Origin: Veillonella sp. T11011-6
Lineage (GTDB): Bacteria; Bacillota; Negativicutes; Veillonellales; Veillonellaceae
DNA: 64,000 nucleotides
Direction of reading: 5' to 3'
Assembly: GCF_002959755.1 (NCBI RefSeq)
Contig: NZ_PPCW01000004.1
Span: 496,001-560,000 of the forward strand
Part shown: positions 57,165 to 63,660 of the stretch, piece by piece
Layout of the letters: every line of letters starts with the position of its first letter
How positions within the stretch are numbered: position 1 is the stretch's first letter
Notes under the pieces: generated by a model
The model's input: only the letters and a program-made list of their open reading frames with translations
Database searches by the model: none
Told to the model about the DNA's origin: nothing
Position numbers and translations under genes: made by a program

Positions 57165-57323
57165 GGGACTTTCACCTAGATTATTAAGGAAAAAGCAGAT
57201 AAATTCTGCTATAATAATATATTAGAGATTATAAAATCAAATTAATTTTTATGGTTCTATACATTGATTCGTATGCGCTAATGTAGTGGATAGGGCTGAG
57301 TGTATTGAAGACTGGAGGTACCC

Positions 57324-58541
57324 GTGGAAATCATCGATACATCATTGATTGAACGTATTCGCAAGGCCTTAATTAAACGTTATGATCGAGATCAACAGAT
57401 CCAACAAATGATTGAAGAAATCGGTGCCGAAGAGGGGCTCAATGAGTCAGAATTGGCTATCGTTTACCAAGCTTATTTAGAGGTTAAGGAACGCGTATAC
57501 TATACATCCTCTCTCGTTGATTTATGGAATCAAATTGAAGAGGTTCAAAAACGGATGTCCATGTTGCATACCTATGATTCTCTTGAAGAGGATTTATTTG
57601 GTAATGTGTTAGGCGACGATAAAGAGAATATCATCATTTCTGATGAATCTTATCTTGGCAAGGGTGCTAGTCATAATAATGATATATATGCTATGGAACA
57701 GGTCCAATTATCGGATATTCCTGTGCAGCATGATTCTACAGTGGGCATGAACCATATTAAATTGAACGAATTGCATTCTATGGGTGGTCTTTTTACAGGT
57801 TCTGGTGAAAGCTCCAAACATGAGGTGTCTGACCTTGATGAAGCAATTGTAGAGCATATGGATGTCAATCCACTAGATGGCGTGGAAAGCTTAGAAGTCC
57901 ATCATTTAGATGAAGAAAACCCATTTGATGCAGAAAATTCTGTGTTGCTTTCAAAATCTAAGAATACTGAAACATCCCTTAACAATACGGATGCATCTAC
58001 TAAAAAAGATAGCACTGTATCTAAGCATGAAGATGCATCTCATACAGGTAAATCTGTAGATGATGAATTTGATGATATATCCTCCATTGATCCGTATACA
58101 GCGGTAAATGCTTTGTTATTTGGCAAAGCTGGTTTAGATTCCGATAAAGCCAATAAGAAGATGGAAAAGCTTCTTAAAAAGCAATTGAAACGCGTAGATG
58201 ATGAATGGGCGCGTATCAATGGGACTGACGAAAAGTCTAAAAAATCTAAGGACCACAAAAAATCCAAAGACGAAAAAAAATCTAAAGAAGACAAGAAATC
58301 TAAGGATGACAAGAAGTCTAAAGAGGATAAAAAGGACAAAAAACATAAAAAGTTCAAGGAAGATAAACATTCTAAGTCTGAAGATAAGTTAAAGAAAAAG
58401 AAAGACAAGGCTGAAAAGAAGCTTAAAGTCTTAAATGACAAGTTAAAAACAGTATTTTTGGCGGATACTTTCAAGAAAAAAGATAAGAAAAAGGATAAAA
58501 AATCCGAAAAGGATGGATCCGAAAAAAAGCAAAAACGATAG
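57324..58541 (+). CDS. Unknown protein with Lys-rich tail; probable -1 frameshift near its end
   Basis: 405 residues, GTG start with TGGAGGTACCC upstream. The first 90 residues are helical (IERIRKALIKRYDRDQQIQQMIEEIGAEEGLNESELAIVYQAYL). The middle (95-290) is acidic and of low complexity. The last 110 are a run of KKSKD/KEDKK repeats, very basic and probably RNA- or membrane-binding. No family was recognised. Near the end the heptamer A AAA AAG (58523-58529) sits in the exact phase of a -1 slippery site, with AAAGGAT about 12 bases upstream. The -1 frame stays open for 52 more codons (separate entry). The methyltransferase gene lies upstream and an LtaS-like gene downstream. Confidence 0.7.
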   Translation: MEIIDTSLIERIRKALIKRYDRDQQIQQMIEEIGAEEGLNESELAIVYQAYLEVKERVYYTSSLVDLWNQIEEVQKRMSMLHTYDSLEEDLFGNVLGDDKENIIISDESYLGKGASHNNDIYAMEQVQLSDIPVQHDSTVGMNHIKLNELHSMGGLFTGSGESSKHEVSDLDEAIVEHMDVNPLDGVESLEVHHLDEENPFDAENSVLLSKSKNTETSLNNTDASTKKDSTVSKHEDASHTGKSVDDEFDDISSIDPYTAVNALLFGKAGLDSDKANKKMEKLLKKQLKRVDDEWARINGTDEKSKKSKDHKKSKDEKKSKEDKKSKDDKKSKEDKKDKKHKKFKEDKHSKSEDKLKKKKDKAEKKLKVLNDKLKTVFLADTFKKKDKKKDKKSEKDGSEKKQKR

Positions 58542-58687
58542 TTTCTGTATGGAATAGTAAGGCCTCTGAACAGAGGGTTAAGGAGAGTACTAGTGCGAAG
58601 AAATCGGCAAATGCTGGAACTATCGACCGCGGGTGCGGTAAATGCAAGCGATGTAAGGGACCTAAGTGTAAGAAATATCCAACATAA
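58529..58687 (+). CDS. -1 frame extension with Cys-rich end
   Basis: Frame reached by a -1 shift at the A AAA AAG heptamer (58523-58529): 52 codons from GCA to the TAA at 58685-58687. It starts AKTIVSVWNSKASEQR, continues with KKSAN, and ends in CGKCKRCKGPKCKKYPT, a four-Cys cluster (C-x2-C-x2-C-x4-C) fit to bind zinc or an Fe-S cluster. There is no start codon with a ribosome site in this frame, so it is expressed only as a fusion, if at all. Alternatives are a real single-base deletion or a sequencing error in the A7 run. Confidence 0.5.
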   Translation, partial: AKTIVSVWNSKASEQRVKESTSAKKSANAGTIDRGCGKCKRCKGPKCKKYPT

Positions 58688-58740
58688 TTATAGTTAGGTA
58701 GTATAGAGTAGTTACGTTATATGAAGAATAGTAGGGATTA

Positions 58741-60720
58741 ATGATGAACCGATGGCAACGATTATTTGAAGGCATAAAGACAGAGATTAAGGTATTTATC
58801 TTTTTCTCTGCCTTGTTGACTGCATTTAGAATCGTGTTTCTTGCAGTATTTCAATCACAACTGGCATCTGTGACGATGGAGAATATCCTTACGTCCTTAT
58901 GGCTAGGCTTTAGATTGAGTCTCAAGACAGTTGGTTCTTTGTGTTTATTGGGTTTCTTAGGAGGCACATTGGTGCATACCTTTGTACCAAAATGGCCATC
59001 CTTGCGCATTAAACAGGTTATCTATTCTATTGCAACGGTACTGTTAACCTTCTTATTCTTGGGGCGTATTCCATTCTATAAGATTTTTAATTCCTCCTAT
59101 AATGCGATGCTCATTAATGGTAAAAACGATGATATCGGTGCCATTATTAATACAGCCATCAATGAATATAATGCGTTGATGTACATCGTTGGTGCTGTTG
59201 TGTTGAGTGCAGCCCTTTGTTGGTTCCTCGTTCGTTTCTTGGCGTGGGGCACAAAGAAATATAGCGATTACGCTAATACTCAACTAGTTTGTACTACGTG
59301 GTATCCTAAGACGAAGAAAACGCAATGGATTACAGGCATTGGATTGACTGTAGTTATCGGCGTACTAGGACTATTCTTTAGATTTGGTGGTGCTTTTAAT
59401 TATACAAATTCCATCAACTGGGAAAGTGCGGCGCGACTCAGTTCTAATCTGTTAAACGAAACCATTCTTGATGATGTACAGGCTCTTTATCGTGTTAAAA
59501 GTATTGCAAAACGCGCGGAGGAGTTAGAGGTTATCAACTTAACCCCTCAAGAATTGAGTGAAAAAATTAGTGCCATCGGCGGTAAGTTTAACGGTAAGGA
59601 TTTTGATGGTTCTTTCACAAGAACTATTACGACAGAGCGTTTAGCGGAGCAACCACAGTCTATCAATATCGTTCTCGGTGAATCTTATGGTTTGTGGCCA
59701 TTCCTTGGTGAATACAACGAACCTGGTGCGTACCTCGTTGAACAAGGTCGTAAATATGCTGCCAGTCCTCAAGCGATGAGTACACAGCTAGCACTTGCCC
59801 AAGGTACAGGTACGATGCCTGCTATCAACGGTTTATTGACTGGCATGCCTGACACAGGTCTATATCCTAACTATGAAGGTGAAAGCTTCAAACAACCGTA
59901 TGGCTTAGGCATTGGTTCTGTTATGAAAAAGCTAGGTTATAAAACTGTATTCTGGTACGGCGGATTTAGTACATGGCAAAATGTGAAGAACTTCGCCTTG
60001 TCTCAAGGTTTTGATGAATTCCATGATGCTTCTGAAATGCCAAGTGATGAAAGCAATGCATGGGGCGTAGCGGATAAGGATATGTTTAAAGCCATTTCCG
60101 CTTACATGGATCAACATAGAGGGGAAAAAATCCTCAACGTAATTATGACTACATCTAATCATCCTCCATATAGCGTTAACGTCGCTAAAGAAGGGTATGA
60201 TGTGAACAAGGTAAAAGGTCATTTGCCTGATACAATCGCTGAAACCGATAAACAATTGAACGAAATGGGTCATATTTGGTATGCAGACCATGTAATGGGC
60301 CAGTTTATCGCCAGTGAAGAAAAAGCAGATCCATCGGCGCTCTTCGTTATCACTGGGGACCATAGCGAACGCTTTACCTTTGCTCGCGAAGTAAGTCCTA
60401 ATGTGGCATCTACCATTCCAATTATCTTCTATGGTCGAGGCATTCATAAAGACTGGCTTGCTCCAAACGCTTTCGGCATGAGCATTCAAATCATTCCAAC
60501 CTTGGCAGAACTTGTAGGTCGTCCTGGTCAAACCTATGAAGCCATGGTACCAAGCTTGTTTACACAAGAGAAATTTGTCTTTAACCATAGACTCTATCTA
60601 GATAACAATGGAAAAGTTATGGAACAAGGCACAAATATGCCTCAAGCCTATGGTGATGTGATTAAGAACATGCGCGAACTCGCAGCATGGCGTATCAAAC
60701 ATGGGGATAGTATTCAATAA
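58741..60720 (+). CDS. LtaS/EptA-like membrane sulfatase-fold transferase 1
   Basis: 659 residues. Five N-terminal membrane segments (first 200 residues; IFFSALLTAFRIVFLAVF, SLKTVGSLCLLGFLGGTLV, VIYSIATVLLTFLFLG and others), then an extracytoplasmic alkaline-phosphatase-fold domain: INIVLGESYGLWP, GTMPAINGLLTG with the probable Thr nucleophile, TVFWYGGFSTWQN, IMTTSNHPPYSV and LFVITGDHSERF. This is the lipoteichoic-acid synthase/phosphoethanolamine transferase superfamily. In a diderm with LPS a lipid A, core or glycan phosphoglycerol/phosphoethanolamine transferase is more likely than LTA synthesis. A paralogue lies at 61639-63660. Confidence 0.85.
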   Translation: MMNRWQRLFEGIKTEIKVFIFFSALLTAFRIVFLAVFQSQLASVTMENILTSLWLGFRLSLKTVGSLCLLGFLGGTLVHTFVPKWPSLRIKQVIYSIATVLLTFLFLGRIPFYKIFNSSYNAMLINGKNDDIGAIINTAINEYNALMYIVGAVVLSAALCWFLVRFLAWGTKKYSDYANTQLVCTTWYPKTKKTQWITGIGLTVVIGVLGLFFRFGGAFNYTNSINWESAARLSSNLLNETILDDVQALYRVKSIAKRAEELEVINLTPQELSEKISAIGGKFNGKDFDGSFTRTITTERLAEQPQSINIVLGESYGLWPFLGEYNEPGAYLVEQGRKYAASPQAMSTQLALAQGTGTMPAINGLLTGMPDTGLYPNYEGESFKQPYGLGIGSVMKKLGYKTVFWYGGFSTWQNVKNFALSQGFDEFHDASEMPSDESNAWGVADKDMFKAISAYMDQHRGEKILNVIMTTSNHPPYSVNVAKEGYDVNKVKGHLPDTIAETDKQLNEMGHIWYADHVMGQFIASEEKADPSALFVITGDHSERFTFAREVSPNVASTIPIIFYGRGIHKDWLAPNAFGMSIQIIPTLAELVGRPGQTYEAMVPSLFTQEKFVFNHRLYLDNNGKVMEQGTNMPQAYGDVIKNMRELAAWRIKHGDSIQ

Positions 60721-61638: not shown

Positions 61639-63660
61639 ATGAGTGAACAATTTTTTCTATCCCTACAACAAAATATAAAACTAATGCTTTGGGCTCCTAT
61701 ATTGAGCACCATCTTTCGAATCATATTCATGATCGTTTATAATCCTTACCCCACATGGAAGGGACGCTGGAAATCTGTATTAGGTTCATTGCGTTACGGC
61801 TTCTGGTGGGGCATGGATTTTGATGCATATGTATTCTTATTACCCTTAGTATTGGTGACGCTCCCTGCATTATTATTTGATGGGTATCATCAAATAGAAG
61901 ATACTATACGATTGGTAGGATTAACCATTTATTCCTGTGTATTATATGCAGCTTTTGCAGGAAAAATGATTTTCTACAAGCATTTCCATGATACGTATAA
62001 CTATATGGTTCATTATGGAAATCATGCAGAGAAACGTAATTTGATTGATGTATTCTTTAATCAAGATCGAGGAATTCTCGTCATTTTAGGATTGATTCCT
62101 ATTACATTTATATCCTGGTACATGGGAGATTTCTTCTTGTCCTTGCCATCAATACCGTATCCAAACATCGAAGGAACATGGCCTACGGTAGCTTGGAATA
62201 TAGGACTTGTGTCTGCCTCTGTGTTAGGTTTCTATTGGTTCCGCTATGGTGGCACCTTATCTCATGATGATAAACCAGAATGGGATACGATTCCTACAGT
62301 GGTAAAAGAGGATATATTCTTTGCTCGTGCTACAGTGCCAGATCTATGTGCTTTAGAAACGGTACTCAAACATCCGCTACGTGATGAATATACAGCATCA
62401 CCTGAGGATATTGATGACGCCATACACCGTATTGTTCCTGACAAATACAAAGATTCCTGGCAGGATTTGAGCACACCACTTCATGCATTTAAGCGCGTTG
62501 CATCAGGTCCTCGTATTGATAAACCGCAGCATATTTTCTTTATTGTTGGTGAAAGTATCCCTCAATGGTCTCTTGATGAACCTTATAAGGATCTCAATAT
62601 TTGTCCTGGTTTATGGGATTTTAAAGATAATCCACATACGGCGCAAGTGCCTAATTTCTTGCCTGCCGGTAATGTATCTCGTCCATCCATTGTAAGTCTA
62701 TTATCTGGTGTCTATGATGCGGGTATGGAAATCAATGAACGGGAAGCCTTTTGGCATGAGCCACTGCCGACCTCTTTGGCAGCTCAAATGAAGCGATTAG
62801 GCTATGATACGATTTATTGGTATGGTGGTAATGCGTCGTACGGCAACTTTAATCACTTTGGTAAGGCTCAAGGCTTTGATCGCGTGGAAAGCGCTTCTGT
62901 TTTCTGTGGTCCCGATGCTCCTAAAACGTGGGTAGGCGTCTATGACCATGTCTTTTTAGAACATATTGAACAGGAAATCAAATCTTTAGAACATCCTACA
63001 TTCCATTTTATTTACACAACATCCAATCATGGCCCTTATAAAATGGAGGATTCCTTATTAGATTATGATCCTGAAAAGGTCATGCCTAACCTTGGAGATG
63101 ATCTGAAATCTAACAAGAAACGTAATAAAGAATTGGCTACCTATCGCTATAGTGATAAGGCGATTTTTAACTTTGTACGTGCTATGAAAGAGGCTTTTCC
63201 TGATAGTTTATTCGTTGTCACCGGTGACCACTCGAATCTATTTGGGTCTCTGAATAATACATCCTTAATTCAACGGGATTATACTTTGCGCGACACATTC
63301 TGTACCGTAGGTCTATTGCAACATCCTGCTTTCACTAAGGACAGTATTACAGCGCCCATTGGCACGCATATGAGCCTCATGCCTACAATCATTGAAGCCA
63401 TTGCACCAAAGGGTTTTGAATATTATTCCATTGTGCCGTCCTTGTTTGAGGAGCAGCCAGAAACTTTAGTTACACCGTACCAGTGGATTACACCGCATAT
63501 GATGGGCGATGTTCGTATGGATTATGGTGAAAGCAACATACCGTCCTATAAACCGGTTGAGCCAATTCGACCTATTAATAATCATGCAGATGATGCACGT
63601 GATTGGACATTGTTGACCATGTGGCTCATTAATCATGAGGACAGTATGAATAAGTCGTAG
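61639..63660 (+). CDS. LtaS/EptA-like membrane sulfatase-fold transferase 2
   Basis: 673 residues. N-terminal membrane segments (first 220 residues) and an alkaline-phosphatase-fold domain: IFFIVGESIPQWSLDEPY, GNVSRPSIVSLLSG, DTIYWYGGNASYGNF, FIYTTSNHGPYKM and LFVVTGDHSNLF. It aligns with the first paralogue, but where that protein has GTGTMPAINGLLTG, the probable nucleophile Thr is Ser here. The ribosome site is weak (TGGAAG), so the ATG 61639 is a best guess. Probably modifies LPS or another surface glycan with a phospho-linked group. The next gene encodes a GT4-type glycosyltransferase. Confidence 0.84.
   Translation: MSEQFFLSLQQNIKLMLWAPILSTIFRIIFMIVYNPYPTWKGRWKSVLGSLRYGFWWGMDFDAYVFLLPLVLVTLPALLFDGYHQIEDTIRLVGLTIYSCVLYAAFAGKMIFYKHFHDTYNYMVHYGNHAEKRNLIDVFFNQDRGILVILGLIPITFISWYMGDFFLSLPSIPYPNIEGTWPTVAWNIGLVSASVLGFYWFRYGGTLSHDDKPEWDTIPTVVKEDIFFARATVPDLCALETVLKHPLRDEYTASPEDIDDAIHRIVPDKYKDSWQDLSTPLHAFKRVASGPRIDKPQHIFFIVGESIPQWSLDEPYKDLNICPGLWDFKDNPHTAQVPNFLPAGNVSRPSIVSLLSGVYDAGMEINEREAFWHEPLPTSLAAQMKRLGYDTIYWYGGNASYGNFNHFGKAQGFDRVESASVFCGPDAPKTWVGVYDHVFLEHIEQEIKSLEHPTFHFIYTTSNHGPYKMEDSLLDYDPEKVMPNLGDDLKSNKKRNKELATYRYSDKAIFNFVRAMKEAFPDSLFVVTGDHSNLFGSLNNTSLIQRDYTLRDTFCTVGLLQHPAFTKDSITAPIGTHMSLMPTIIEAIAPKGFEYYSIVPSLFEEQPETLVTPYQWITPHMMGDVRMDYGESNIPSYKPVEPIRPINNHADDARDWTLLTMWLINHEDSMNKS

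Follow-up and report, generated by a model that had tools for sequence, protein, structure and literature searches.

A conserved −1 frameshift signal predicted to append a four-cysteine tail to cysteine-free, lysine-rich proteins of an undescribed Veillonellaceae family

Does the gene for a lysine-rich protein in Veillonella sp. T11011-6 have a single end, at its zero-frame stop codon, or do some ribosomes slip back by one base just ahead of that stop and continue into a cysteine-rich tail? The gene lies in the window (the whole stretch of DNA that was analysed, 64,000 nucleotides, from a genome of 2.05 Mb), where its zero-frame ORF runs on the plus strand from 57324 to 58541 (405 aa, TAG stop at 58539–58541 included), with a GTG start and GGAGG at 57314–57318. 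From comparison with relatives, we consider genuine programmed −1 ribosomal frameshifting of the dnaX/IS911 type, yielding a form without cysteine and a form with a four-cysteine (Cys4) tail, to be the likely explanation, with a probability of about 0.9.

The zero-frame product is probably a cytoplasmic protein combining a coiled coil with a Lys-rich part. It consists of a helical-hairpin N terminus (approximately residues 6–92), an acidic middle and a Lys-rich C-terminal third, with 59 Lys and Arg among the last 145 residues, and structure prediction models the N terminus as a two-helix hairpin with a mean pLDDT of 81. Searches of Pfam, NCBIfam and PDB sequences gave no family match for the protein or its tail. 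Foldseek against the PDB gave nothing at E ≤ 0.001; its weaker matches were of a generic helical-hairpin kind, and no function is therefore claimed from them. The N-terminal domain is present in 21 Veillonellaceae genomes, and a search of 380 genomes of the class gave no convincing match elsewhere, only three weak ones outside the family; the gene family is an undescribed one of the Veillonellaceae. Its neighbourhood offers no functional lead, and the neighbours differ between the window and the sister genus. Two long alternative-frame ORFs, at 58134–58370 on the minus strand and 58198–58392 on the plus strand, overlap the Lys-rich repeats and are probably artefacts of the AAG/GAT-rich repeat rather than genes.

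The gene ends in GAA AAA AAG CAA AAA CGA TAG, and the heptamer A_AAA_AAG at 58523–58529 (plus strand) therefore stands in the dnaX-type −1 phase, as the first-pass annotation, made from the window alone, had read it. That annotation's proposal of recoding can be judged by orthologue comparison. Our genus sample comprised 14 Veillonella genomes, of which 12, the window's included, carry a close orthologue, one (G007) carries a divergent one and one (G001) has none. All 12 close orthologues keep the heptamer in its phase, the two-frame layout and the Cys-rich tail in the −1 frame, with the heptamer 7–16 nt from the zero-frame stop. The codon ahead of the Lys pair varies among them (GAA, GTA, GCA, GGA, ACA or AAA), and its last base is always A. 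Within the window gene, which has 21 Lys-Lys pairs, A_AAA_AAG occurs in phase once, where codon usage predicts 1.5; as the sole in-phase copy in the gene, kept at one position by all 12 orthologues, it exceeds chance.

Past the shift, the −1 frame stays open for 52 codons (58529–58684, plus strand, with TAA at 58685–58687), the length that had been claimed for it, and reads AKTIVSVWNSKASEQRVKESTSAKKSANAGTIDRGCGKCKRCKGPKCKKYPT. The C-terminal end of this tail is CGKCKRCKGPKCKKYPT, and it closes with DRGCGKCKRCKGPKCKKYPT, in which the cysteines are spaced C-x2-C-x2-C-x4-C. The predicted products are 405 aa without the shift and 454 aa with it, in line with the two forms first proposed. Across the 12 orthologues the zero-frame product never contains cysteine and the tail always contains four, three of them in the consensus D(R/K)GCGKCKRC(K/R)G and the fourth after it; 13 positions of the tail are invariant, all four cysteines among them. 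In the 18-codon Cys block, 26 columns vary over the 12 orthologues, of which 4 are first, 6 second and 16 third codon positions. Among codons with a single difference in the close clade, the −1 frame gives 126 synonymous to 102 non-synonymous changes; the corresponding counts for the two other frames are 51:178 and 26:220. A synonymous bias confined to this frame points to selection on the tail as a −1 frame product. Searched through the 380 genomes of the class, the Veillonella tail found matches in Veillonella only. AlphaFold gave no confident fold for it (pLDDT 54). From its four invariant cysteines, which recur with other spacings in relatives, this basic tail is most likely a putative site for zinc or another metal.

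The main conserved stimulator appears, from its conservation and covariation, to be a downstream RNA stem, which the first-pass annotation had not mentioned and which we found in all 12 Veillonella orthologues. On the plus strand of the window, a 6-nt spacer (58530–58535; exactly 6 nt in every one of the 12, within the roughly 5–9 nt expected of dnaX/IS911-type signals) separates the heptamer from the 5′ arm CGATAGTTTC at 58536–58545, which overlaps the zero-frame stop codon, and the 3′ arm GGAACTATCG lies at 58616–58625, within the Gly-Thr-Ile-Asp codons of the tail. Folding of the downstream region gives a long-range stem in most species. In the window's clade the stem is predicted to close a branched 70-nt loop bearing an inner hairpin (CCTCT-GAAC-AGAGG, 58563–58576, plus strand), a predicted element seen only in the close clade.

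Several comparisons bear on this stem. Over nine distinct Veillonella sequences, six of its ten pairs show double compensatory changes, such as GC to CG, AU to GC and UA to CG. In the alignment 97.8% of cells pair, compared with 30–46% for slid partners, a percentage that is partly built in because the arms were chosen for pairing, and the covariation counts therefore outweigh it. On four of five measures the stem beats all slid controls and 500 of 500 shuffles. In an alignment-free test of the 18 genomes, from two genera, that have the frameshift layout, the region 4–22 nt past the heptamer paired in every case with the tail of the same genome, with a mean pairing energy of −16.5 kcal/mol, versus −12.5 kcal/mol with tails of other clades. 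When each tail was recoded synonymously 2000 times, the native stem was stronger than the recoded ones in the main clade (p 0.01–0.04), in G003 (p 0.025) and in the two sister-genus clades (p 0.02–0.04 and 0.0005–0.0015); the difference was marginal (p about 0.09) for G013 and G002, and the stem was not stronger in the denticariosi-like clade (p 0.25–0.43). Combined by Fisher's method with one genome per clade, the six clades give p of about 7e-5.

Two further features could modulate the signal. The first is AAAGGAT at 58508–58514 (plus strand), which had been put forward as an internal Shine-Dalgarno stimulator. The motif is indeed present upstream, at 8 nt from the heptamer rather than about 12, and comparable elements are strong in the window species, G010 and G002 and moderate in several others; they are absent in G008 and G003, and the element is therefore at most a possible auxiliary stimulator. 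The second is the tRNA complement. The genome encodes tRNA-Lys with anticodon CTT (L122) besides two with TTT (L106 and L127), that is, CUU in addition to UUU, and work in E. coli implies that tRNA-Lys(CUU) should reduce slippage on AAG. By analogy, its presence may lower the slipperiness of AAG and so matter for the efficiency of A_AAA_AAG here; E. coli is not known to have this tRNA.

Taken together, comparative sequence establishes a slippery site held in one codon phase, a stem that covaries and keeps its distance from that site, and selection on the tail in the −1 frame; that the slippage itself occurs on the ribosome we infer. Ribosomes would arrive at A_AAA_AAG while translating the end of the Lys-rich protein and would be stalled by the stem 6 nt beyond it. 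A fraction would then re-pair both tRNA-Lys one base back, on AAA AAA, and read on in the −1 frame, and the remainder would terminate within four codons. Because some ribosomes would shift and others stop, each mRNA should give two proteins, one of 405 aa that lacks Cys and one of 454 aa that ends in a basic tail with four invariant Cys.

A parallel arrangement is seen in a sister genus (g4), where six of seven genomes have the same layout with A_AAA_AAG or A_AAA_AAA at the stop; in three of them (G024–G026) the slippery site is A_AAA_AAA. The stem there is of a CCTTGG/CCAAGG type, 4–7 nt from the heptamer, and the Cys4 motif of the −1 tail is another one, in which GRCQVCxNxC precedes the fourth Cys and KKRQRA, so that the spacing is C-x2-C-x3-C-x6-C versus C-x2-C-x2-C-x4-C in Veillonella. 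Three genomes, G021, G022 and G027 (loci L098, L097 and L096), have tandem in-phase heptamers, A_AAA_AAG CC A_AAA_AAG, directly ahead of the stop. In G022 the −1 tail is 123 codons long, versus about 56–59, because of a long insertion ahead of the Cys4 block that leaves the block in frame. In further homologues the tail is disposed otherwise. The more distant homologues of G023 (L103) and G007 (L102) end in Cys4 sequences read in the zero frame, KPCKGCKTKCNPCKKDKK and KRCVCKKKKDRCTC respectively, and the tail would therefore be made constitutively there; the homologue of G014 lacks a Cys4 tail. On these comparisons, the Cys4 tail would be a widespread and replaceable part, and frameshifting one way to put it on only some copies of the protein.

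Several other explanations could, in principle, account for the two frames. First, in programmed transcriptional slippage, RNA polymerase would add or drop an A in the run, and normal translation of the altered mRNA would give the tail. The run comprises seven A in six species (58522–58528 in the window) and nine in G003, where AAA precedes the Lys pair, and such a mechanism does use runs of about nine (PMC1088944), with runs longer than seven among those listed in PMC3711429. In five of the 12 orthologues (G012, G009, G008, G013 and G002), however, the run is only six, so that a long run of about eight to nine or more is not kept across the homologues. Moreover, the run always sits in the X_XXY_YYZ phase, which polymerase slippage does not need, and a covarying stem at a fixed 6-nt spacing resembles a ribosomal stimulator. 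Because of the six-A runs, the strict codon phase and the stem at fixed spacing, we favor slippage on the ribosome and regard the transcriptional route as improbable.

Second, the tail might be a separate small protein, made by reinitiation or from its own start codon. An early ATG or TTG does occur in the −1 tails of G004, G008, G009, G010 and G012, but in the other seven orthologues, the window's among them, the tail frame contains no ATG, GTG or TTG, only ATA, ATC and ATT codons, and independent standard initiation therefore cannot explain the tail. Such a protein would also leave the heptamer and the stem unexplained, and we consider this possibility very unlikely.

Third, the zero-frame stop could reflect an indel, a sequencing error or a phase-variable tract in a gene that is otherwise in a single frame, an alternative that the first-pass annotation had itself raised. 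A homopolymer does lie at the junction, and G023 and G007 do carry a Cys4 tail in frame 0. Against this, the identical two-frame layout recurs in 12 Veillonella species and six sister-genus genomes despite varied A-runs and differing zero-frame stops, and none of the 12 close Veillonella orthologues has a fused frame or lacks the tail. Because the layout is fixed over 12 species even though the A-run may count 6, 7 or 9, we exclude an assembly error or phase-variable tract and give an indel hardly any credence. Finally, that the stem and conserved region form some other RNA element, a regulator or terminator, with the −1 frame incidental, is extremely unlikely. The downstream gene does start (at 58741) soon after the tail, but an Rfam search with E values as high as 1 matched nothing in the region, and the −1 frame shows protein-like third-position variation with invariant Cys.

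Programmed ribosomal frameshifting at this locus resembles known systems in part. Like E. coli dnaX, it would use A_AAA_AAG in the same phase in a chromosomal gene, with a stem a few nucleotides downstream and, in some species, possibly an upstream Shine-Dalgarno element. It differs in that the dnaX shift shortens the product (gamma), whereas the shift in Veillonella would lengthen it by the Cys4 tail, in that some Veillonella species lack the Shine-Dalgarno element, so that it is not conserved, and in that the tRNA set of the host includes tRNA-Lys(CUU). With the transposases of the IS911/IS3 family it shares the heptamer, a long branched structure a few nucleotides downstream and a longer fusion protein, although the Veillonellaceae gene is single-copy, chromosomal and of an undescribed family, with neither mobile element nor transposase. 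The branched stem loop predicted in the window's clade recalls the IS911 stimulator, which is a three-way junction according to the title of Rettberg et al. (1999), as listed in PMC4066793. A third analogy is E. coli copA, a cellular gene whose −1 frameshift gives a truncated product, a putative copper chaperone (PMC5009743). There too a cellular gene yields two forms, one of them proposed to bind metal, but the copA shift truncates a transporter, whereas that in Veillonella would append a Cys cluster to a Cys-free, Lys-rich protein.

Well-supported −1 frameshifts in cellular genes, outside mobile elements and phages, are few. In an E. coli-centered survey, reduced synonymous variability around the site is reported for only two of 56 non-mobile candidate clusters (PMC4066793). 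The signal described here, which by its sequence conservation is real and conserved in an undescribed Veillonellaceae gene family, would add a full case with genus-wide covariation, plus a parallel one in the sister genus, from a group of oral and gut commensals. The literature on Veillonella with programmed or ribosomal frameshifting yielded nothing relevant, although an unnamed GeneTack cluster in the supplementary tables of PMC3711429 and PMC4066793 may contain this gene. Annotation would also be corrected, as a gene caller confined to a single frame misses the tail in every species.

Perhaps the tail lets the protein bind nucleic acid or some other polyanion in a way that depends on metal or redox state. 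We suggest, tentatively, that frameshifting serves to set how much of a Cys-free, Lys-rich protein receives a four-Cys (metal or redox) module, and that two genera have conserved this device and replaced the module. The target of selection would in that case be how much protein carries the tail relative to how much lacks it, a ratio that translating cells might sense by way of metal or redox state. The relatives offer a natural experiment, as their Cys4 tails lie in the shifted frame, lie in the zero frame or are missing, depending on the genome.

The next gene downstream begins at 58741, shortly past the end of the tail. Its product (58741–60720) matches Pfam Sulfatase, and together with a second large protein of similar size (61639–63660) it flanks a family 2 glycosyltransferase; by eye, the second protein is of the same LTA synthase-like kind as the first.
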